Of a DNA stretch of 64,000 bases, positions 38,964-52,904 are shown in pieces (positions within the stretch are counted from its first letter, which is position 1; each line of letters starts with the position of its first letter). A program made the position numbers and the translations under genes. Source of the DNA: Nitrosococcus watsonii C-113 (GTDB lineage: Bacteria; Pseudomonadota; Gammaproteobacteria; Nitrosococcales; Nitrosococcaceae); the NCBI RefSeq assembly GCF_000143085.1, contig NC_014315.1:2758001-2822000 (forward strand), in the 5' to 3' direction. The notes below the pieces were generated by a model that saw only the letters and a program-made list of their open reading frames with translations, was not told the DNA's origin and made no database searches.

Positions 38964-39488
38964 CTAATCGTCCCGTTCTGTTACATCAACATGGTCCGCA
39001 ATAAGAAACGCATCCACGTCTTCTATCTCGGTTCTAATTTCTTCATCCAGAACCCAATCGTATTCACGCTCAACGTCCACAAACTTCACCGCGCGAACCG
39101 TTCCGGTAACGGTAACCTCGTCGTCTTCCTGAACATTAAGATTGCCTTTTGGCATCACAACCACTATCTCATCGTTAAAAAGCCCGCCGCTTTCGAGGAT
39201 AAAGGCTTTCTTATCAATCCTTTCTTCTACTTCTCCGGAAACGGTAACTTTCTGGCCATCGTAACGTTCTATATTATCTAGCAGTTTTTCTACATCTTCT
39301 ACTGTCTGGGCTTGGCCACCTGCTTGCTGCCCATCCATCCGAGAGGATTGGTCGGCACCTGAAGAAGGCGGGACAGTTGTCTGCGCGCTACCCAGGGCAG
39401 GCAGAGACATAAGCGCAGCGCTAGCCATGGCGGCTATAAACGTTTTTGTGACGGTGTCTATGTTTAGTTGCTGTAAAAATTTCATCAT
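38964..39488 (-). CDS. Periplasmic OB-fold protein, paralogue 1
   Basis: 174 residues. Signal peptide with core FIAAMASAALMSLPALGSAQ is cleaved after SAQ. A short Ser/Gln-rich linker (GADQSSRMDGQQAGGQAQ) is followed by an OB-like strand pattern: RYDGQKVTVSGEVEERIDKK, AFILESGGLFNDEIVVVMPK, EDDEVTVTGTVR. The acidic C-terminus ends DVDAFLIADHVDVTERDD. It belongs with small bacterial OB-fold (BOF-type) envelope proteins. Ligand unknown. It is a tandem duplicate of 39670-40194. Confidence 0.72.
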   Translation of the reverse strand: MMKFLQQLNIDTVTKTFIAAMASAALMSLPALGSAQTTVPPSSGADQSSRMDGQQAGGQAQTVEDVEKLLDNIERYDGQKVTVSGEVEERIDKKAFILESGGLFNDEIVVVMPKGNLNVQEDDEVTVTGTVRAVKFVDVEREYDWVLDEEIRTEIEDVDAFLIADHVDVTERDD

Positions 39489-39669: not shown

Positions 39670-40194
39670 CTAATCGTCCTGTTCTGTTATATCTACATGG
39701 TCTGCAATAAGAAATGCTTTTGTATCTTCTATCTCATCTTTAATTTCTTCGTTAACTACCCACTGATATTCATTTTCAATGTCAGCAAATTTGGCCGAAC
39801 GAACTGTTCCGGTAACCGTAACCTCATCGTCTTCCTGAACGTTTAGATTGCCTTTCGGCACTATTACGACTATTTCATCATTGAATATCCCGCCACTTTC
39901 AAGGATAAAGGCTTTCTTATCAATCCTTTCTTCCACTTCCCCGGAAACGGTAACTTTCTGGCCATCGTAACGTTCTATATTTTTCAGGAGCTTTTTCACA
40001 TCTTCTACCGTCTGGGCTTGGCCACTTGCTTGCTGCCCACCCATCCGAGAGGATTGGTCGGCACCTGGAGAAGGCGGGACAGCTGTCTGAGCTATACCCA
40101 GGGCAGGCAGGGACATAAGCGCAGCGCTAGCCATGGCGGCTATAGTCATTTTTGGGAGAGTGCCCATCCTTTCTTTCCAGAAAATCTTTTTCAT
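39670..40194 (-). CDS. Periplasmic OB-fold protein, paralogue 2
   Basis: 174 residues, very close to its downstream neighbour from the signal peptide core (AAMASAALMSLPALG) to the C-terminus (AFLIADHVDITEQDD). Differences cluster at the extreme N-terminus (MKKIFWKERMGTLPKM) and in the segment after TVTGTV. Both start with a clear purine-rich ribosome site. The pair are probably independent units, as a hairpin separates them. Confidence 0.72.
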   Translation of the reverse strand: MKKIFWKERMGTLPKMTIAAMASAALMSLPALGIAQTAVPPSPGADQSSRMGGQQASGQAQTVEDVKKLLKNIERYDGQKVTVSGEVEERIDKKAFILESGGIFNDEIVVIVPKGNLNVQEDDEVTVTGTVRSAKFADIENEYQWVVNEEIKDEIEDTKAFLIADHVDITEQDD

Positions 40195-43989: not shown

Positions 43990-45402
43990 TTATCCCATTA
44001 CCTCCAGCAATGCCAATAACGGTCCAGGCCAAATTCCTAAACCGAGGATGCCTGCTAAACAGCTACTATACAGCGCAAGGTAATCTTTTTTCATCGGCAT
44101 GGAATACACCTGAACAGGAGAGTAAAGGTATACCTCGGCGATAATCTTGACATAATAATACAGCGCCAGCGTCATATTAATCACCGCGATGACGGCAAGC
44201 CCTATCATCTCCCCCTCAAGCACTGCTGCTAGCAAAAAAACTTTGCCGGCAAACCCGGCCAGGGGTGGGATGCCCGCCAGCGACAATAGGCATAGAGCCA
44301 AAACTCCAGCAGTCCCCGGCGCATGCTGACTTAAGCCCCGGAGCGCTTCGTAGGAGTCGCTGCCTGTCGCCCGTTCCAAATGAGCCCCCACCGCAAAGGC
44401 GCCCAAGGTCATAAATAAATAACCAGCGAGGTAATAACCAATAGCCGCCAAGGCGCCCGTTTCCCGTTCGGCCACGGCCACCGTCATGAGAAGATAACCT
44501 GCGTGGGCGATGCTCGACCAGGCGAGCAAGCGCTTTAGATGGTTTTGCCGCAGGGCGATCAGATTGCCCAGCGTCATGGTTACGGCGGCGCCTATCGCGA
44601 GCCAGAGGGGCCATCCGGCCATTTCACCGAGCATTCCTTCCAGCATAAAGCGCAGCAGGGCCGCCATGCCGGCCGCTTTGGGCACCACGGCGAGAAAACC
44701 CGCCACCGGCGCCGTCGCTCCGGCAAATACATCCGGCGCCCACACATGAAAGGGCGCCAGCGTGATCTCGAAGCCATAGCCCACCAGGATTAAGATCAGG
44801 GCCAGGGTTACCCACAGCCCATCTGCGTCCCGCAAGCCGCTGCCAATCGTCTGTAAATTCAGGCTACCCGTTAAACCATACAAGAAAGTCAGCCCGTAGG
44901 CCATAATGGCTAAAGCGACCCCCGCGTAAATAAAATATTTAAGAGCGGCTTCCAGAGCGGGTCGGTGGCAGCGTTCAAGGGCGACCAGCACATAGCTGGC
45001 CATGCTCATCATCTGAAAGAAAAGTACGATTAGGCCCAGATCCCGGCTAGAAGCCAGCCCCACGGCCCCCAGGGTGGCGAACATCACCGCGACCGCCGCC
45101 GGGGCCTGTTGGGAGCGGCCGCGGAAATATATCATCAGCAACGCCACAGTCATAAGGCTGCTTAGCTCAATAATTAGCTTAAAAACATGGGCAAAACCAT
45201 CCAGGGCGTAACTGCCATGGAAAGCCATCACCGGCTGCCAGGAAAGCATTCTGGCGGTCGCCACCAGGCAGGCAAGCATTCCCAGCAGGGCCATTAGCCC
45301 TGGCAGCACCCGCCATTGACCCCGTACCCAGCCCGCTAGGGGGACCAGTACTAGACACAGGCCTCCCAGGATAAGTTCGGGGATGAGCGCCCACAGTTTC
45401 AT
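43990..45402 (-). CDS. nuoN: NuoN-like antiporter-type subunit, with changed channel residues
   Basis: Complex I membrane-arm subunit of about 470 residues, homologous to Mrp antiporters. The start at 45402 overlaps the nuoM stop as ATGA; the frame is open upstream but lies inside nuoM. Fourteen or so helices are visible. The segments FFQMMSMASYVLVALER (TM5) and GYGFEITLAPFHVWAPDV (TM7) align with the proton-path helices. By eye the canonical TM5 Glu is Gln130 and the TM7 Lys is Glu212. TM8 Lys242 (VVPKAAG) and the Lys in AGFAGKVFLL are kept. It is the last gene of the nuo cluster. Confidence 0.9.
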   Translation of the reverse strand: MKLWALIPELILGGLCLVLVPLAGWVRGQWRVLPGLMALLGMLACLVATARMLSWQPVMAFHGSYALDGFAHVFKLIIELSSLMTVALLMIYFRGRSQQAPAAVAVMFATLGAVGLASSRDLGLIVLFFQMMSMASYVLVALERCHRPALEAALKYFIYAGVALAIMAYGLTFLYGLTGSLNLQTIGSGLRDADGLWVTLALILILVGYGFEITLAPFHVWAPDVFAGATAPVAGFLAVVPKAAGMAALLRFMLEGMLGEMAGWPLWLAIGAAVTMTLGNLIALRQNHLKRLLAWSSIAHAGYLLMTVAVAERETGALAAIGYYLAGYLFMTLGAFAVGAHLERATGSDSYEALRGLSQHAPGTAGVLALCLLSLAGIPPLAGFAGKVFLLAAVLEGEMIGLAVIAVINMTLALYYYVKIIAEVYLYSPVQVYSMPMKKDYLALYSSCLAGILGLGIWPGPLLALLEVMG

Positions 45403-46874
45403 CCTGCCGCCAGGCCCCGCGTGGTTTCCCGAATGATGCCCAACAGCCAACTTGGCAATATCCCTAGCAGCAGGGATAAAATCGTTAAGCTCCCCAGGAT
45501 CGCCAGCTTTCGTCCTTCCGGCTCCCGCATCGCCGCCGCCTGCGCGTGGGGCTCGCCCCAGAGCACCGAGATCACGATACGCAGATATAAACCCGTGGTG
45601 ATCACTAACGCCGCCAGGGTCACCCCGGCGACCCCGAAATTCCAGGAAACGGCCGCTCCCAGTAGTTGAAATTCCCCAATAAATCCCGAAAGTCCAGGCA
45701 ACCCTAACGAGCCGAACACCAGCACCCCAGTTAGCAAGGAAAAGACCGTTGCCTGGCGGGATAAGCCACTCAGCCGGCCCATCTCCCGCGTCCCCGTTTG
45801 ATCTTGAATCACGCCAACGGCGAAAAACATCCCTCCCGTCAGCAGGCCATGGCTAATGATCTGGTAAATGCCGCCATTTAGGGCCAATGCCTGCACGCTT
45901 GCAGTGGGCGCCAACACGGCCAGCGCCGCTGCCAGCATGATATACCCCATATGATTGATGGAGGTGTAGGCAATGAGGCGCTTTAGATCCTGCTGGGCCA
46001 GCGCGGCCAGTGCCCCGTAAACAAGGGAAATCAAGGCCAGCGCCAGCAACAGCCAAGCGTACTCCAACATTACCCGCGGCATAGTGGGCAGCATAATGGC
46101 GAGCAGGCCATACGCGCCCATCTTAAGTTGAATGCCAGCGAGCATCACGCTGCCTTCGGTGGGCGCTTCCACATGGGCATCGGGCAACCAGTTATGGAGG
46201 GGCACGGTAGGCAGTTTCACGCCAAAGCCAAGGAGCATTCCCAGCATGATCCAGCCGCCAGCCGTGCTCCCTTGGGCCAGGGGCTGGGCCTCGATGATGG
46301 TGGGCAACGAAAAAGTATGGGGCTCCATCAACAGATATAGCGCCAGAAAGCTTAGCAAAATCGCCAGACTAGCGGCCCGGGTATAGAGAAAAAATTTCAT
46401 GGCGGCGTAGCGGCGATCCTCATGACCCCAGAGGCCGATAATGAAATACATGGGCACCAAGCCCACTTCAAAGAAAAGATAAAATAGCAGTAAGTCTTGA
46501 GCGGCGAAGACCCCCAACAGGCCGGTGGCCATGAGCAGAAAGAGCGCGGCGTGGCCCTTGGGGCGATCGTCATTCCGCAGCACATAGACCATCACCGTAA
46601 CCAGCAACCACGCCGTCAGTAAAATCAGCGCCAGCGAAAAACCATTGACGCCCACATCGTAGGCCGCATTGACAGGCGGAATCCAAGGCAAGGTGGCGCG
46701 CCACTGCAATCCCGGCCGGGCGGCATCGAACCCGGTCAATAAACCTAAGGCGGCGGTAAAGGCCAGCAAGGCGCCCGCCAAAGCGACCCACCGAATCAGA
46801 AAAGGGCGTGAACGGGGCAGGATTAACACCACCAAGGCCGTGGCTAAGGGCAAAAAAATAGTCAAGCTCAACAT
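45399..46874 (-). CDS. nuoM: NuoM-like antiporter-type subunit
   Basis: 491 residues of the complex I NuoM family. Unlike its neighbours it keeps the usual charged residues: Glu in FFEVGLVPMYFIIG, Lys in GVKLPTVPLHNWLPDAHVEA, and Glu in GLSGFIGEFQLLG, aligning with E. coli Glu144, Lys234 and Glu407. A putative ion path is therefore intact. It is coupled to nuoN by ATGA and separated from nuoL by an IS605 element that begins 27 bp before its start. Confidence 0.92.
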   Translation of the reverse strand: MLSLTIFLPLATALVVLILPRSRPFLIRWVALAGALLAFTAALGLLTGFDAARPGLQWRATLPWIPPVNAAYDVGVNGFSLALILLTAWLLVTVMVYVLRNDDRPKGHAALFLLMATGLLGVFAAQDLLLFYLFFEVGLVPMYFIIGLWGHEDRRYAAMKFFLYTRAASLAILLSFLALYLLMEPHTFSLPTIIEAQPLAQGSTAGGWIMLGMLLGFGVKLPTVPLHNWLPDAHVEAPTEGSVMLAGIQLKMGAYGLLAIMLPTMPRVMLEYAWLLLALALISLVYGALAALAQQDLKRLIAYTSINHMGYIMLAAALAVLAPTASVQALALNGGIYQIISHGLLTGGMFFAVGVIQDQTGTREMGRLSGLSRQATVFSLLTGVLVFGSLGLPGLSGFIGEFQLLGAAVSWNFGVAGVTLAALVITTGLYLRIVISVLWGEPHAQAAAMREPEGRKLAILGSLTILSLLLGILPSWLLGIIRETTRGLAAG

Positions 46875-46996
46875 GAATTGAGATACCTTGCCATAAATTA
46901 CGCCGCGCGGGGACTACCGACTTTAGGCGGCAGAGGAAGCGCGGCCCTCCGTAAGGTTGTTTGCAGTATATGTCTGCCGGATGTATAATTACCGGC

Positions 46997-47392
46997 ATGA
47001 CTCGTTACGCCAAAAATGCCGGCGCAGTGTTTGCGCTCAAATATCACCTGGTTTGGTGCCCCAAATACCGTCGCAGTGTATTGGTTGATGGCGTCGCCAA
47101 GCGGCTGGGCCAGTTGATTCGAGAAGTCGCAAGTGAGTTTGAAATGACCGTGCATGCGATGGAGATCATGCCAGATCAGGTGCATCTGTTCGTTGAGTCT
47201 GATCCACGCTGGTGCGTTGCCGAGATAGTTAATCGTTTTAAAGGGCGAAGCAGCCGCGTCTTGCGTTCCGAATTTCCGGTTTTGCGCAGCCGCTTGCCGA
47301 CCCTGTGGAGCCGCAGTTACTACGCGGGCACGGTAGGCCGCGTGTCCGAGGCGACCGTGCGCCGTTATATTGAGAACCAGGTCGGCAAGTAG
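46997..47392 (+). CDS. tnpA: IS200/IS605 TnpA (Y1 HUH transposase), HUH motif altered
   Basis: 131 residues: KYHLVWCPKYRRSVL at the N-terminus, IMPDQVHLFVE at 58-66 and the nucleophile Tyr124 in VRRYIENQ. The usual His-hydrophobic-His pair at the metal site (commonly PDHVHL) reads Gln61-Val-His63, a change reachable by one base (CAC or CAT to CAG). If the alignment is right, metal binding and thus single-strand transposition would be weakened or lost. Start taken at 46997; the frame is open upstream. It ends immediately before tnpB. Confidence 0.87.
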   Translation: MTRYAKNAGAVFALKYHLVWCPKYRRSVLVDGVAKRLGQLIREVASEFEMTVHAMEIMPDQVHLFVESDPRWCVAEIVNRFKGRSSRVLRSEFPVLRSRLPTLWSRSYYAGTVGRVSEATVRRYIENQVGK

Positions 47393-48511
47393 ATGATCAA
47401 GGCGTTTAAATACCGTCTTTATCCAAACGCCCATCAAGCGCGCGAGCTTGAAATCATGCTCGAAACGCATCGACGTTTGTATAACGAATGCCTGGCTCAA
47501 CGAAAAGAGCGCTTTGAGACCGCCCAAGAAAGCGTGAAGTACACGCAGCAATCGGCTTGGTTTAAATCCGCTCGCGGCGCTAACGATTGGTACGCTCTGC
47601 TTAATTTCTCCTCTGCCCAGGCCACGATGAGACGCCTGGATAAAGCCTTCCAAGCGTTCTTCCGGCGCATTAAGGCCGGTGGAAAGCCCGGTTATCCGCG
47701 CTTCAAGGCCCGGGGCCGCTTCGATAGCTGGACATACCCAGCGCACGGCGACGGCGCATGGTTGCTCAATGGCAAGCTGCGCCTTCAGCACCTTGGTGTG
47801 GTTAAGGTGCGCCAGCATCGCCCTGTAGAGGGTACGGTCAAAACCGTGCAGCTCAAGAATGAAGCCGGGAAATGGTTCGTCGTTGCCAGTTGCGATGTTG
47901 GCGCTGCGCCACCGCCGCGAGCCAGTGAGACGGCTGTCGGCATTGATGTCGGATTGGAATACTTCCTGTCCACCGATCAAGGCGAACACGTTGATAACCC
48001 GCGTTATCAAAAAGAAGCGTTGCGCCAGTTGCGGGTTGCTGGGCGTGCTGTTTCGCGCAAGAAAAAAGGCAGCCGGAACCGACGCAAAGCGGTTGCCAGA
48101 TTGCGTGCTGTACATGCGCACGTAGCCAACAAAAGGCGGGACCACCACAAAGTGGCCCGCGATTTGGTGAGTCGATACGCCTTCATCGCGGCGGAAAGCC
48201 TGACCGTGAGAAACATAGTCAGAAATCGCCGGTTGAGTCGGTCGATTTCGGATGCTGGCTGGCGCCAGTTTCTGAACATACTCCGCGCCAAGGCTAAAAG
48301 CGCCGGGTCGGTGTTGGTTGAAGTTCCTCCGCAGGGCACGTCGCAAGCGTGTTCCGGGTGCGGCGCAATGGTGCGCAAAGCGCTGTCCGTGCGCATGCAC
48401 CAGTGCCTGGAGTGCGGCCTGATCCTGCAAAGAGATGTCAACGCCGCCAGTAATATCCTGGCCCGTGGCCCGGCTCGGATGGAGCCTGTGCAGCTTAACG
48501 TGGCGCAATAG
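47393..48511 (+). CDS. tnpB: TnpB RNA-guided nuclease
   Basis: 372 residues. N-terminal OrfB helix-turn-helix region (AFKYRLYPNAHQARELE); RuvC-like acidic residues at GIDVGLEYF, AAESLTVRNI and LQRDVNAASNI; and a zinc ribbon with CSGCG and CLECG. All three acidic positions and the four Cys are present, so it looks active. Family knowledge: TnpB uses an omega RNA from its 3' end and cleaves DNA next to a TAM, which promotes retention of the element. Here the TAM would be TTAC-like. Confidence 0.92.
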   Translation: MIKAFKYRLYPNAHQARELEIMLETHRRLYNECLAQRKERFETAQESVKYTQQSAWFKSARGANDWYALLNFSSAQATMRRLDKAFQAFFRRIKAGGKPGYPRFKARGRFDSWTYPAHGDGAWLLNGKLRLQHLGVVKVRQHRPVEGTVKTVQLKNEAGKWFVVASCDVGAAPPPRASETAVGIDVGLEYFLSTDQGEHVDNPRYQKEALRQLRVAGRAVSRKKKGSRNRRKAVARLRAVHAHVANKRRDHHKVARDLVSRYAFIAAESLTVRNIVRNRRLSRSISDAGWRQFLNILRAKAKSAGSVLVEVPPQGTSQACSGCGAMVRKALSVRMHQCLECGLILQRDVNAASNILARGPARMEPVQLNVAQ

Positions 48512-48559: not shown

Positions 48560-50518
48560 TTAGTCATTCCCCGCCAGCAATAGCCCAACCGCGACAATCC
48601 CGACGCCTATCAGAAAGATGAAAGCGAACACGCTCAAAGTATAAAGATAAAGCTTGCCGCTCTGGGAGGAGCGCAGCTTCTGCCCACCCCATTGAAAAAA
48701 GCCCGCCAAGCGGTCATGACCCGCACCCCATATTGCTGACTCAAAGCGTGCCGCTGCCTCGCCAGCCGCCATAGCTGTGTCCCTGCTAGCGCGGGCAGCC
48801 CCATTGAAAAAGCTTTCGTAAAGCAGAACGCCCTTGGCTAGCAACAACGCCCCGGTAGCAAAAAACCGCCCTGACCTATCAACATGCCGTTCCAACCTAG
48901 CCAGTGTCACCGCCCCTGCTATGGCAGTGCGGGCTGTCACAGCGACCAGGCCATAAATGATAACAGCCAGTCTGCTAGGCCAGCGGCCAAGGGCGGGCGC
49001 CGGCCCCCGCTGGTAAACCCGCCCCGCGCCTAGTCCTAAGCCGATGAGGCTTGCCAGAACAGCGCCCTGGGACCAGGCACCACTTAAGGCCGCACTACTA
49101 GCCGCAAAAGGCAGCATGGCCTCGATGGGAGTTTTAATCAGCGCCCCGAGCCCGGCGGCAGCCAGGGCCAAACCCAGGGCAGGCCCAACCAGCGCTACGG
49201 ATTCGCGCGAGTTTGCCGGCGTGGCCGTCCGCGGCGTAACCCCAAAAGTAGCCATGGTAGCCCGGCCTATATAGATTCCAGCCAGTAAAGTCAACACCAG
49301 CATGATGATTCCCCAGGCGGCATGGACGGAGATGGCCTGCCTTAATAGATGCTCCCCGCTCCAATAGCCCGACAACAGCGGAAAACCCGCCAGCGCGAGG
49401 GCAGAGGCAAGGAAGGCGCCCGCCGTCCACGGCAAGCGCTTTCCCAGCCCGCCAAGCCGGCGCAGATCCCGGGTGCCCGTGGCCCGCTCCAGCGCGCCGG
49501 CGCTAAGAAAAAGCGCTGATTTAAAAGTAGCGTGGACGGTCAAATGAAAAGCCGCCGCCAGCGGCCCCCCCAGCCCTAGCGCGAGCATCATCTCCCCCAG
49601 TTGGGAAACGGTGGACCAAGCAAGAAGGCGCTTTAGATCGTATTGGGCGGTAGCCACCAAGGCGGCGATCAAAGCGGTGAAGGCGCCAACCCCCAACACC
49701 ACTGCTAAGGCCAAGGGCGTATGTTCAAACAAGGGAAACAGCCGCAGCACCAGAAATACTCCCGCGGCGGCCATGGTGGCTGAGTGAATCAGGGCCGATA
49801 CCGGCGTTGGCCCCGCCATCGCTTCCGGAAGCCAAGCGGTCAAGGGCAATTGGGCGCTTTTTCCCATAGCTGCAAGGAAAAACAGCAGGGCCAGCCCATT
49901 GAGCGTCCCGGTGGTAAAAACGCCATTTTCCACCTGCGCAAAAAAAAGCGGCAATTGGGTCGTGCCGGTGATTGTCAGGACCCAAAGCCAGCCGAGCAGC
50001 AGGCCCATATCCGCGAGCCGGGTCATGAGCAGCGCCTTAATGGCCGCTTGCCGGGCCTTGGTCTGGCCATGGCGCTGGCCAATTAAAGCAAACGAGGCCA
50101 GCCCTACCCCTTCCCAAGCGATAAATAGCAGTAGCAACGACTGGCTCAGCACCAGGAGCAGCATCATCCCTACAAAAAAGCTCAGCCAGGCGAAAAATCG
50201 TTGGCGGCCCCCTTCATCAGCCATGTAGGACACGGAATAAACGGCCACGGGCAGCGCAATCCAGGCGACTAGCGTAGCCATCCACCAGCCCAGGCTATCG
50301 GCCGCCAGGCTTAGCGTCAGCGCAAAGCGGCCTACCGTGAACCAGGTCAGTGTCATCTCAGTGTCGGTGCCGGACAAGGGCAGCATCGCCAAGGCGGCGA
50401 TAAAAATCCCCCCGAGCGCAAGTCCGCCCCCCCGGTCTGGCAGCCAGCGCCCGCCAAGGGCAATCAGCGCCGCCATGAATAGGGGAGCAAAGGGCGCTAG
50501 CAGCAACAATGCCGTCAT
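48560..50518 (-). CDS. nuoL: NuoL-like antiporter-type subunit
   Basis: 652 residues of the complex I NuoL family with the long C-terminal lateral helix region. Glu136 (FIAWEGVGL), Lys220 (GKSAQLPLTAWLPEAM) and the HATFKSALFL block are kept. In TM12 the usual S-K-D-E of E. coli aligns with GYWSGEHLL at 384-392, so the terminal Lys (399 in E. coli) is Gly388 with Glu beside it. Its ATG overlaps the nuoK stop. Its stop touches the IS605 element. Confidence 0.93.
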   Translation of the reverse strand: MTALLLLAPFAPLFMAALIALGGRWLPDRGGGLALGGIFIAALAMLPLSGTDTEMTLTWFTVGRFALTLSLAADSLGWWMATLVAWIALPVAVYSVSYMADEGGRQRFFAWLSFFVGMMLLLVLSQSLLLLFIAWEGVGLASFALIGQRHGQTKARQAAIKALLMTRLADMGLLLGWLWVLTITGTTQLPLFFAQVENGVFTTGTLNGLALLFFLAAMGKSAQLPLTAWLPEAMAGPTPVSALIHSATMAAAGVFLVLRLFPLFEHTPLALAVVLGVGAFTALIAALVATAQYDLKRLLAWSTVSQLGEMMLALGLGGPLAAAFHLTVHATFKSALFLSAGALERATGTRDLRRLGGLGKRLPWTAGAFLASALALAGFPLLSGYWSGEHLLRQAISVHAAWGIIMLVLTLLAGIYIGRATMATFGVTPRTATPANSRESVALVGPALGLALAAAGLGALIKTPIEAMLPFAASSAALSGAWSQGAVLASLIGLGLGAGRVYQRGPAPALGRWPSRLAVIIYGLVAVTARTAIAGAVTLARLERHVDRSGRFFATGALLLAKGVLLYESFFNGAARASRDTAMAAGEAAARFESAIWGAGHDRLAGFFQWGGQKLRSSQSGKLYLYTLSVFAFIFLIGVGIVAVGLLLAGND

Positions 50519-50829
50519 CCTTTCAGCGCTTTATATTTATCCACTTGTACGGTTTGATGGCGGCGATAGAGCAACATCATGATGGCCAAGCCGATGGCCA
50601 TTTCAATGGCGCCAATGGTCACAATGATAATCACGAAAATTTGGCCGGAGTAATCCTGGGGAGCGGTGAAACGCCAAAACGCCACCAGATTTAATCCTGT
50701 GGCATTCAGCAATAGTTCAATTCCCATGAGCACCATCACCGCGGTACGCTGGGCGATGATGGCATAGAGTCCAATGGCGAACAGCACCGCCGCTACCAGT
50801 AAAAAAGCAGTTAAGGGAATCGCAATCAT
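50515..50829 (-). CDS. nuoK: NuoK-like subunit
   Basis: 104 residues, three membrane helices. The two buried Glu of the family are kept: MGIELLLNATGLN near residue 37 and IGAIEMAIGLAIM near residue 76. Normal length. It overlaps nuoL by ATGA and lies 48 bp after nuoJ. In canonical complex I this subunit forms part of the E-channel linking the quinone arm to the antiporter subunits. Confidence 0.94.
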   Translation of the reverse strand: MIAIPLTAFLLVAAVLFAIGLYAIIAQRTAVMVLMGIELLLNATGLNLVAFWRFTAPQDYSGQIFVIIIVTIGAIEMAIGLAIMMLLYRRHQTVQVDKYKALKG

Positions 50830-50877: not shown

Positions 50878-51663
50878 TTATTTTTCCGTCTCCTGGTCGG
50901 GTTCGGCCGTCTCAAAGGGAGAATCAGTTTTAATGGGAGCAGGAGGCGCGTCTACCGCAGCCTGGAGGTCCTCCCTCTGGGTCGGGTCAGGATGCTTGCC
51001 AGGGCGTTGCAGCATAACAGCGCCAAAAATACCCAGCAGAATTAATAAACCCGCCCCTTCAAAGGCAAGCATGTATTTATCCATGAGCAAGTGACCAATC
51101 CGCCGGGGCGAGTCTTGGTCCGGCATTTGCCTGACTACCGCCCAGTGGGGTCGCCATAGTAAAAGCGCAATCAGTAAAGCGCCGATGCCCACGGACAGCA
51201 GGGCGGCCGCGCGCTTAACGGGGGTAAACATGGACATATCATCATTGCCGTGGTTTCCTTCCTTCTCCCCTTCTTCCTCGTGGTTGCCCTTATCGGGGGA
51301 AGAATCATCCTTATTTCCATCCGCTTTGGATTGAGGGGAGCGGGCCAAGCCCAGGCTAAAGAACCACTCGGGGCCCCGAAGCCGCATGTGAGTGCTCATC
51401 ATCGCGCCGCCGGGATCGCCGCTGAACAGCAGCATGAACAAAATCATCACCAACATACCGCCGATGTACATCATGATTTGCAATAGGGCTAGCAAGTCAG
51501 CAAGCAGCAAAATAAATAAGCCCGCCACCCCTATGAAAGAGGCCATCAGAAAAATACCGCTGCGAAACATGCTCATGGTGGTGGCCATGCCCAAGGCTCC
51601 GGCGATGCTGATAAAAGCAAAGATCCCAAACGTAATCCATTGCAGAACCGGACTCACTTCCAT
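50878..51663 (-). CDS. nuoJ: NuoJ-like subunit with a charged insertion
   Basis: 261 residues, longer than typical NuoJ (roughly 170-200). The core helices and the TM3 motif MMYIGGMLVMILFMLLFSG are present. Between the third and fourth membrane segments, about residues 108-146, lies a highly charged Lys/Asp/Glu/His/Asn-rich stretch (KADGNKDDSSPDKGNHEEEG). There is also an extended acidic C-terminal tail. It abuts nuoH without a gap. The insertion may be a docking surface, which is inference. Confidence 0.9.
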   Translation of the reverse strand: MEVSPVLQWITFGIFAFISIAGALGMATTMSMFRSGIFLMASFIGVAGLFILLLADLLALLQIMMYIGGMLVMILFMLLFSGDPGGAMMSTHMRLRGPEWFFSLGLARSPQSKADGNKDDSSPDKGNHEEEGEKEGNHGNDDMSMFTPVKRAAALLSVGIGALLIALLLWRPHWAVVRQMPDQDSPRRIGHLLMDKYMLAFEGAGLLILLGIFGAVMLQRPGKHPDPTQREDLQAAVDAPPAPIKTDSPFETAEPDQETEK

Positions 51664-52596
51664 TTAGTAGTCTGCGCCTGGAGAAAAGGGTTCTTGACCG
51701 ACGCCTAGCAGGATTAATCCGCCCACGATGAGCACATTAAGCAAGCCCACCGGGATAAGAATTTTCCATGACAGCATGAGTATCTCAGCCGTGCTTAGCA
51801 GCCGCGCCTGACGGCCCAACCAAACCATAAGGGCCATGAGCCCCACGGTCTTGATGACCATCCAAACCGGCCCCGGCAAAAGCGGGCCGCTATAGCCCCC
51901 CAGAAAAATAACCGCCCCCATGGCGGCGACCACAAACAGCACCCCCGACAGGGCCAGCCGCCAGAGCAAACCTTTCCAGCCGCCAAACACCCCGAGCACG
52001 CCCCGGTTGAGGAGCTCGGCGAAAGGCTCCAGAAAAGGCGCCCGATACGTTTGTATCAAGCCGGTGGCCACATAAAGGGCAAAACCAAGGGGCTGGGGAA
52101 TGAGGTACCAGAGTTGAGCGTTGGCCTGCGCCTCAACAATATTCACCGTCGATAAGGAGCGGGCCATCATAATCGGCCCGATAATCGCCAACCCGAGCGG
52201 GATTACATAGGCAATCAATTGGGCGATAGTCCGGTAACAGGCTTCCACGCTAGCGGGCGTATTGGCGCCCCATCCCCCCAGCGCGATGCCGAGCACCACA
52301 AAGTCCACCACTACAATGAAATAAAAAAGCCCGATATTGACATCATTGCCTACTAGGGAAGGGCTAAAGGGAATGCAGACCATGGCCCAGCTCACGCCCA
52401 TAAACGCAATGACCGGTCCGGCATAATAGAGCCAGGGATCGGATTGAGTTAACCGCACATCGGCAGCAATTTTTACCGGACTTGCCGGTCCCCGCTCGCT
52501 ACCAGCGCCAAGCCAGTTAGGCTCCAGCCAGGCGGTAAGCCACGCCCCCGCCAAAAGGGCGAGCAACGGTGCCAGAACGCTCATCATCACTCCCAT
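51664..52596 (-). CDS. nuoH: NuoH-like subunit lacking quinone-chamber motifs
   Basis: 310 residues. Order and fold match NuoH (GIALGGWGANTPASVEACYR, then TIAQLIAYVIPLGL), but family hallmarks are degraded. SYE is AYV (Glu to Val131). ETNRPPFDLPEAESELV is reduced to QTYRAPFLEPFAELL. The N-terminal NRxGPNR(V/A)GP loop is not recognisable. These segments normally line the quinone tunnel and contact NuoB/NuoD. The first ATG overlaps nuoA by 10 bp; an ATG at 52587 overlapping the nuoA stop is equally likely. Confidence 0.88.
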   Translation of the reverse strand: MGVMMSVLAPLLALLAGAWLTAWLEPNWLGAGSERGPASPVKIAADVRLTQSDPWLYYAGPVIAFMGVSWAMVCIPFSPSLVGNDVNIGLFYFIVVVDFVVLGIALGGWGANTPASVEACYRTIAQLIAYVIPLGLAIIGPIMMARSLSTVNIVEAQANAQLWYLIPQPLGFALYVATGLIQTYRAPFLEPFAELLNRGVLGVFGGWKGLLWRLALSGVLFVVAAMGAVIFLGGYSGPLLPGPVWMVIKTVGLMALMVWLGRQARLLSTAEILMLSWKILIPVGLLNVLIVGGLILLGVGQEPFSPGADY

Positions 52597-52904
52597 TTCA
52601 ATCCACCCATTCCCCAGGCATAGGCAATACCGCCGCTCAGCAATGCGATAAAGACCAGCATATCGAGAAAAGCTTTTAGTCCAATCTCCGCGAATACCAC
52701 CGCCCAGGGATACATAAAAATCATCTCCATATCGAAGGCCACAAAAATAAGCGCATAAGTTGTAAAACCGAAACGATATTTTTTCCAGGAATCGGGCGCT
52801 GACAACGATTCGCTGGGAGGACGCCAGAAGGCGGCGGCCAGCAGCGACACTCCCAGGGCGGACAGTCCAATAAGCGCGACAATGGTGTAAGTTTGCAAAA
52901 TCAT
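52587..52904 (-). CDS. nuoA: NuoA-like subunit lacking the ECG loop
   Basis: 105 residues, three membrane helices. TM2 has the family signature AFDMEMIFMYPWAV near 56-69. The TM1-TM2 loop, which normally carries YECG and faces the quinone site, reads PDSWKKYRFGFTTYALIF here, with no Cys. It is the first gene of the cluster. No nuoB precedes or follows it: upstream is a plus-strand PRC/LysM gene. Confidence 0.9.
   Translation of the reverse strand: MILQTYTIVALIGLSALGVSLLAAAFWRPPSESLSAPDSWKKYRFGFTTYALIFVAFDMEMIFMYPWAVVFAEIGLKAFLDMLVFIALLSGGIAYAWGMGGLKWE

Follow-up and report, generated by a model that had tools for sequence, protein, structure and literature searches.

In the 64,000 nucleotide stretch of Nitrosococcus watsonii C-113 DNA analysed here (the window), the antiporter-like subunit NuoN carries a glutamine where ordinary NuoN proteins have the glutamate of transmembrane helix 5 (TM5), and a glutamate where they have the lysine of TM7. 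This double substitution is real, it is fixed in one clade of NuoN proteins, it is rare, and it occurs in a membrane-only relative of complex I. Our favoured reading, held with slightly more confidence than doubt, is that this NuoN belongs to a stand-alone membrane arm of seven subunits (A-H-J-K-L-M-N), a redox-free translocator in which the TM5/TM7 pair was reset after the driver of the complex was lost.

The substitutions in NuoN

A sequence-only reading of the window had placed nuoN at 43990 to 45402, which is correct; the gene reads on the minus strand with its stop at 43990, the plus strand being full of stop codons. The gene and the codons that matter are as follows.

43990 to 45402, minus strand: nuoN (470 aa), charge-swapped antiporter-like subunit, its ATG at 45402 overlapping the nuoM stop
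45013 to 45015 (read 45015-45013), minus strand: codon of Q130, at the position of E. coli NuoN Glu133 in TM5, from alignment and model
44767 to 44769 (read 44769-44767), minus strand: codon of E212, at the position of E. coli NuoN Lys217 in the broken TM7, from alignment and model
44677 to 44679, minus strand: codon of K242, equivalent to Lys247 in TM8, kept, from alignment
44242 to 44244, minus strand: codon of K387, equivalent to Lys395 in TM12, kept, from alignment

Residues were matched by a HMMER alignment to E. coli NuoN (PDB 3rko_N) and by MAFFT alignments, and both equate Q130 with Glu133, E212 with Lys217, K242 with Lys247 and K387 with Lys395, the placement that had earlier been made by eye together with the retention of the later lysines. 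The alignment is gap-free and colinear around both swap sites (LIVLFFQMMSMAS against SLFLGIELISLPL, and VGYGFEITLAPFH against VGLGFKLSLVPFH). In the NuoN sequence and its alignments TM5 (residues 122-140) has no acidic residue and TM7 has no lysine, so that the Glu/Lys pair one helical turn away which the sequence-only reading had named as fatal to its claim is absent.

An AlphaFold2 model of the protein (mean pLDDT 92.1, pTM 0.93) places Q130 in the middle of TM5 and has E212 closing the helix 195-212, immediately ahead of the TM7 break. Foldseek aligns this model with E. coli, cyanobacterial and mycobacterial NuoN at TM-scores of about 0.9 to 0.95, with all top matches being NuoN/NdhB and ranking above every NuoM, NuoL and MrpD; by sequence the closest solved structures are likewise NuoN/NdhB chains. 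The top NCBIfam match is TIGR01770 (NuoN), at 328.2 bits just short of the cut-off of 332.6. Several independent alignments and the model rule out both a misalignment and a compensating pair one helical turn off, and the Q130 and E212 substitutions are confirmed.

Distribution of the swap

Relatives were sought in 84,980 species genomes. This gave a close set at 55-58% identity (Methylobacterium, Methylorubrum and one MAG each of Beijerinckiaceae and Hyphomicrobiaceae), well separated from ordinary NuoN, which follows only at 30-40%. A second Nitrosococcus-type genome (N. oceani-like) has a NuoN 88% identical to that of the window, and further copies are carried with intact reading frames on Rhodopseudomonas and Methylobacterium plasmids. 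The resulting clade thus spans Nitrosococcus, Methylobacterium/Methylorubrum, MAGs of Beijerinckiaceae and Hyphomicrobiaceae and a Rhodopseudomonas plasmid, and in a maximum-likelihood tree its 13 proteins form a single branch with 100% SH-aLRT support that takes in the plasmid copies. Whether the substitutions recur in close relatives had been left as a check, and they do: Gln and Glu are found together in 13/13 distinct clade members, and Glu and Lys in 75/75 rows of ordinary NuoN. As the swap is common to 13 distinct proteins, a single-genome oddity or a sequencing error is ruled out.

The ordinary NuoN rows were collected with peptide patterns taken from the window protein, which may bias that sample, and the TM7 motif itself was therefore searched in 398 Pseudomonadota genomes. 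The form F-K-x4-PFHxW is found in 319 of these, and the form F-E-x4-PFHxW only in the window nuoN and in one other match, FEQHPFPFHDW, which is unlike NuoN and comes from a genome that has an F-K match of its own. A wide distribution was not found: at the threshold used, 1/369 Gammaproteobacteria and 2/149 genomes of the Methylobacterium family sample are carriers, and the cluster to which the gene belongs was not found in two of the four Nitrosococcus-type genomes, one of which still has the neighbouring SDR and PRC/LysM genes.

Only three NuoN sites are fixed differently between the two groups (type-II sites), namely E133Q, K217E and Y231F, where the E. coli site numbers allow for five residues absent from the trimmed row. 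The orphan proteins also have 28 of the 32 positions conserved in canonical NuoN, and K242, K387, E151 and K155 are invariant in a 41-sequence alignment. With so few fixed differences and so many positions kept, the change is a targeted one rather than decay; a general drift of NuoN is ruled out by the same three-site count.

The seven-gene cluster

The gene is the last of a cluster on the minus strand with the order nuoA-H-J-K-L-[IS200/IS605]-M-N, which bears out the earlier placing of this NuoN in an orphan cluster: seven nuoAHJKLMN genes are present with no peripheral-arm gene. The remaining features are listed below.

45399 to 46874, minus strand: nuoM (491 aa), canonical E136/K220 pair, K251 and E401 kept
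46961 to 48511, plus strand: IS200/IS605 element (TnpA 46961-47392, TnpB 47393-48511) between nuoL and nuoM
48560 to 50518, minus strand: nuoL (652 aa), E136/K220 kept, Gly388 at the E. coli Lys399 position
50515 to 50829, minus strand: nuoK (104 aa), E38 and E76 (E. coli E36 and E72) kept
50878 to 51663, minus strand: nuoJ (261 aa), long charged insert after TM3
51664 to 52596, minus strand: nuoH (310 aa), lacking both the acids of the E-channel and the loops of the quinone site
52587 to 52904, minus strand: nuoA (105 aa), D58 and E60 kept

The statement that NuoM keeps its own pair holds, as E136 and K220 are both present, and NuoL also retains the downstream His and Lys of its channel. The TM12 Lys399 site of NuoL, which is Gly388 here, is Glu in most relatives and is a second charge change within the complex. 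The hydrophilic insert that follows TM3 of NuoJ is acidic in Nitrosococcus; in Rhizobiales it has many His, Met and Asp residues and resembles metal-binding loops. Elsewhere in the window, at 38964-39488 and 39670-40194 on the minus strand, lie two adjacent and very similar 174-aa proteins with a common C-terminal part, apparently a tandem duplication, the first of which (38964-39488) has no match to a Pfam family.

Neither the 64 kb window nor the related clusters gave a match to nuoB, C, D, E, F, G or I, and the same search recovers the peripheral genes in both complete complex I operons that the genome has. There are three NuoH genes in the genome and two NuoD genes, both of the latter in the complete complex I operons, and PF00346 (the NuoD-like large subunit) is confined to those two operons, so that a third NuoD-like gene is absent. 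The changes in NuoH are extensive: the window protein and nine relatives have lost the residues equivalent to E. coli E36, D63, E71, E157, D213, E216, E220, E228 and E241, with D111, R148, R209, K274 and K303 remaining; of the loops, the first cytoplasmic one is shorter and the one between TM5 and TM6 is rewritten. Most of those acids make up the E-channel and quinone cavity of complex I. NuoH is thus without its E-channel acids and its docking and quinone loops in the same complexes in which the Q/E pair of NuoN is fixed. Two features of a respiratory complex I, a peripheral arm (NuoB, C, D, I, E, F, G) and a NuoH that has a quinone cavity and an acidic E-channel, are missing here, and the NuoH losses speak against a redox activity.

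The cluster could instead be an alternative membrane arm, with the complete complex I of the cell supplying a peripheral arm that docks onto it, giving a "forward complex I". This is how the N. oceani cluster is annotated and interpreted in the published account (PMC3772326), and the same genome does have complete complex I operons. We consider it very unlikely, as NuoH is without its first cytoplasmic loop and without the E-channel/quinone residues that form the junction, as plasmid copies travel without peripheral genes, and as transcription of the N. oceani orphan genes runs opposite to that of the complete operon on ammonium (PMC3772326).

Selection and wear

Comparison of the window with the N. 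oceani-like copy gave dN/dS values of 0.084 for nuoA, 0.120 for nuoH, 0.148 for nuoJ, 0.014 for nuoK, 0.153 for nuoL, 0.122 for nuoM and 0.127 for nuoN. All seven cluster genes, with values of 0.014-0.15, are therefore under purifying selection, the orphan NuoN having a somewhat higher value than the ordinary NuoN of the same two genomes (0.056). Under this selection the other translocation residues of A, K, L (bar E. coli Lys399), M and N are kept.

The Nitrosococcus copies do show signs of wear: the window has its IS element inserted between nuoL and nuoM, and the N. oceani-like genome has a nuoL that is split. The IS200/IS605 insertion is clean, its TnpB is of the RNA-guided kind, and about 1.7 kb is missing at this point from the N. 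oceani-like genome. The nuoL of the latter (locus L100, 9423-11385) is in two reading frames with a break after about residue 545, which fits the "LL" of the published name NuoAHJKLLMN. Such wear, and the absence of the cluster from 2/4 Nitrosococcus-type genomes, might indicate a decaying relic of complex I that has simply lost its charges; against this stand the dN/dS values, the fixation of identical substitutions in two proteobacterial classes and the intact reading frames of the plasmid copies, and we regard decay as the least probable of the explanations, and a very remote one.

The role of the Glu133/Lys217 pair

Opinion is still divided on whether complex I pumps at its first antiporter-like subunit, and on how a signal from the quinone site gets there. 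Mutants of E. coli NuoN bear directly on the pair: E133A has NADH oxidase and pumping at the wild-type level and K217A has 68-109% pumping with about half the NADH oxidase, whereas K247A and K395A are nearly inactive (PMC13073174); an earlier study also found mutations of Glu133 to be without functional effect (PMC3046159). The expectation that the swap should stop or reverse this half-channel was therefore too strong. K217E is absent among the E. coli mutants found in the literature, and an effect beyond the loss of the lysine is possible. Set against these data, the orphan NuoN has its substitutions at the two positions that tolerate mutation and retains both essential lysines (Lys247 and Lys395).

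A rival account would be that the NuoN half-channel is inactive and serves as a structural spacer, with ions passing through NuoL and NuoM and with Gln and Glu as freely accepted replacements that stabilise the fold. That E133A and K217A are tolerated for pumping in E. coli does indicate that the site is not strictly needed. The Q and E are nevertheless invariant in 13 distinct proteins down to 55-57% identity with the window NuoN, and Lys242, Lys387, E151 and K155 are invariant where drift would be expected at such buried charged sites, which makes the spacer possible though not probable.

Why the pair changed was not addressed in the sequence-only reading; that NuoH lost its E-channel, and the complex its whole peripheral arm, offers an account. 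The change at tolerant sites, taken with the lost E-channel, suggests that the Glu133/Lys217 pair serves the coupling to the redox side, which the orphan complex no longer has. In the redox-free arm that we favour, the TM5/TM7 pair of NuoN would be what receives the E-channel signal, and it would have been reset because that driver was lost; the acid would have moved to TM7 beside the central Lys242, such that Glu212 and Lys242 may form a pair one helix, or one step, down the axis. The complex would then act as a gradient-driven translocator of ions (protons, or cation/proton exchange), Mrp-like and not redox-driven. Redox-independent ion translocation as in Mrp, suggested by the absence of the redox module, is most likely its role, with the reservation, which counts against this explanation, that retained residues are no proof of pumping.

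Comparison with known systems

Compared with NuoN/ND2 of complex I (E. coli, T. thermophilus and the cyanobacterial NdhB) the orphan NuoN is alike in fold, length, E151/K155, Lys242, Lys387 and the broken TM7, and differs in Glu133 to Gln, Lys217 to Glu and Tyr231 to Phe, and in lying outside any 14-subunit complex. The Mrp Na+(K+)/H+ antiporter (MrpA-G) is likewise a seven-subunit, redox-free system built around NuoL/M/N-type subunits. Mrp, however, has two antiporter-like subunits and no NuoH, whereas the A-H-J-K-L-M-N set is of the complex I type; the MrpA/B/C/D/E/F/G gene set is not present in the cluster, and Mrp-like loci lie separately in the genome. Group 4 membrane hydrogenases (MBH, FHL, Hyc/Hyf) also have complex I-type membrane arms with other drivers, but they all need a NuoB/NuoD-type catalytic module and the orphan cluster is without one.

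The homology to the Mrp family also raises an altered ion selectivity, in which the TM7 Glu forms a site for Na+ or another cation and the complex is a cation/proton antiporter for an ion other than that of complex I. The swap does give the pair a net charge of -1 in place of 0, which could suit a cation site, and the host of the window is marine. The clade, on the other hand, is mostly Methylobacterium, which is not marine, and the comparison with MrpD that had been proposed shows the TM7 Lys retained in the genome's own MrpD-like proteins; this explanation seems unlikely. Separate from the swap, the same genome has at C1:1198000-1212000 (L101) another cluster, with four proteins of the NuoL/M type; in one of them TM5 has Ala and TM7 has Arg.

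Metal neighbourhoods and expression

Metal-resistance genes flank 16/18 Rhizobiales loci and 0/64 canonical nuoN loci, the metal query proteins having come from five of those 18 loci; as the Methylobacterium loci are mostly near-copies, this represents about four or five independent cases. The neighbours, also of the plasmid copies, are a heavy-metal P-type (P1B) ATPase, a CusA/CzcA-type RND pump, a multicopper oxidase with CusF and cupredoxin, or DUF305, and flanks with copper or heavy-metal genes are seen at loci L009, L012, L021, L022, L097 and L099. Metal genes were sought beside the Nitrosococcus copies and not found. Any part in metal or stress physiology would be a further guess, drawn from these Rhizobiales neighbourhoods.

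In the N. oceani study, transcripts of the cluster drop by as much as 12-fold on ammonium after starvation, a response that the complete complex I operon does not share, with the orphan nuoH at -12.3-fold and nuoA and nuoE of the complete operon at +4.2 and +5.4; the transcript of a CzcA metal pump also falls (PMC3772326). A doubtful extension of the redox-free arm is that it has spread on plasmids and metal-resistance islands with its ion flow coupled to the handling of copper or other metals, in which case the NuoJ insert would bind metal on the cytoplasmic side and the TM7 Glu by Lys242 would be a new coupling site replacing the E-channel and Glu133/Lys217.

Novelty and meaning

The cluster is already known in one organism, N. 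oceani, and the N. oceani paper (PMC3772326) was the only one that the literature searched on membrane-only nuo clusters returned. Its NuoAHJKLLMN "C I-membrane arm" (Noc0474-0481) is apparently the same cluster, with a gene set and order that match the N. oceani-like genome, and the window differs from it in having an unbroken nuoL and an IS element between that gene and nuoM; the parts of the paper used here assign it to "forward complex I" and do not mention the NuoN swap or the NuoH losses. A study of the Methylorubrum extorquens copper cluster makes no mention of nuo. In the literature searched we found no report of the swap, of its coincidence with the missing NuoH E-channel or of the distribution on plasmids and metal islands.

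Evolution has here dropped the E-channel and, in the same complexes, has replaced precisely the two NuoN residues at which its signal is thought to arrive. By this pattern the pair would belong with redox coupling and not with ion conduction, and the seven-gene system is a natural and direct test of that. It also shows that a membrane arm with all seven of its subunits, corresponding to ND1-ND6 and ND4L, can be conserved, and can travel on plasmids, with no electron-transfer partner alongside.
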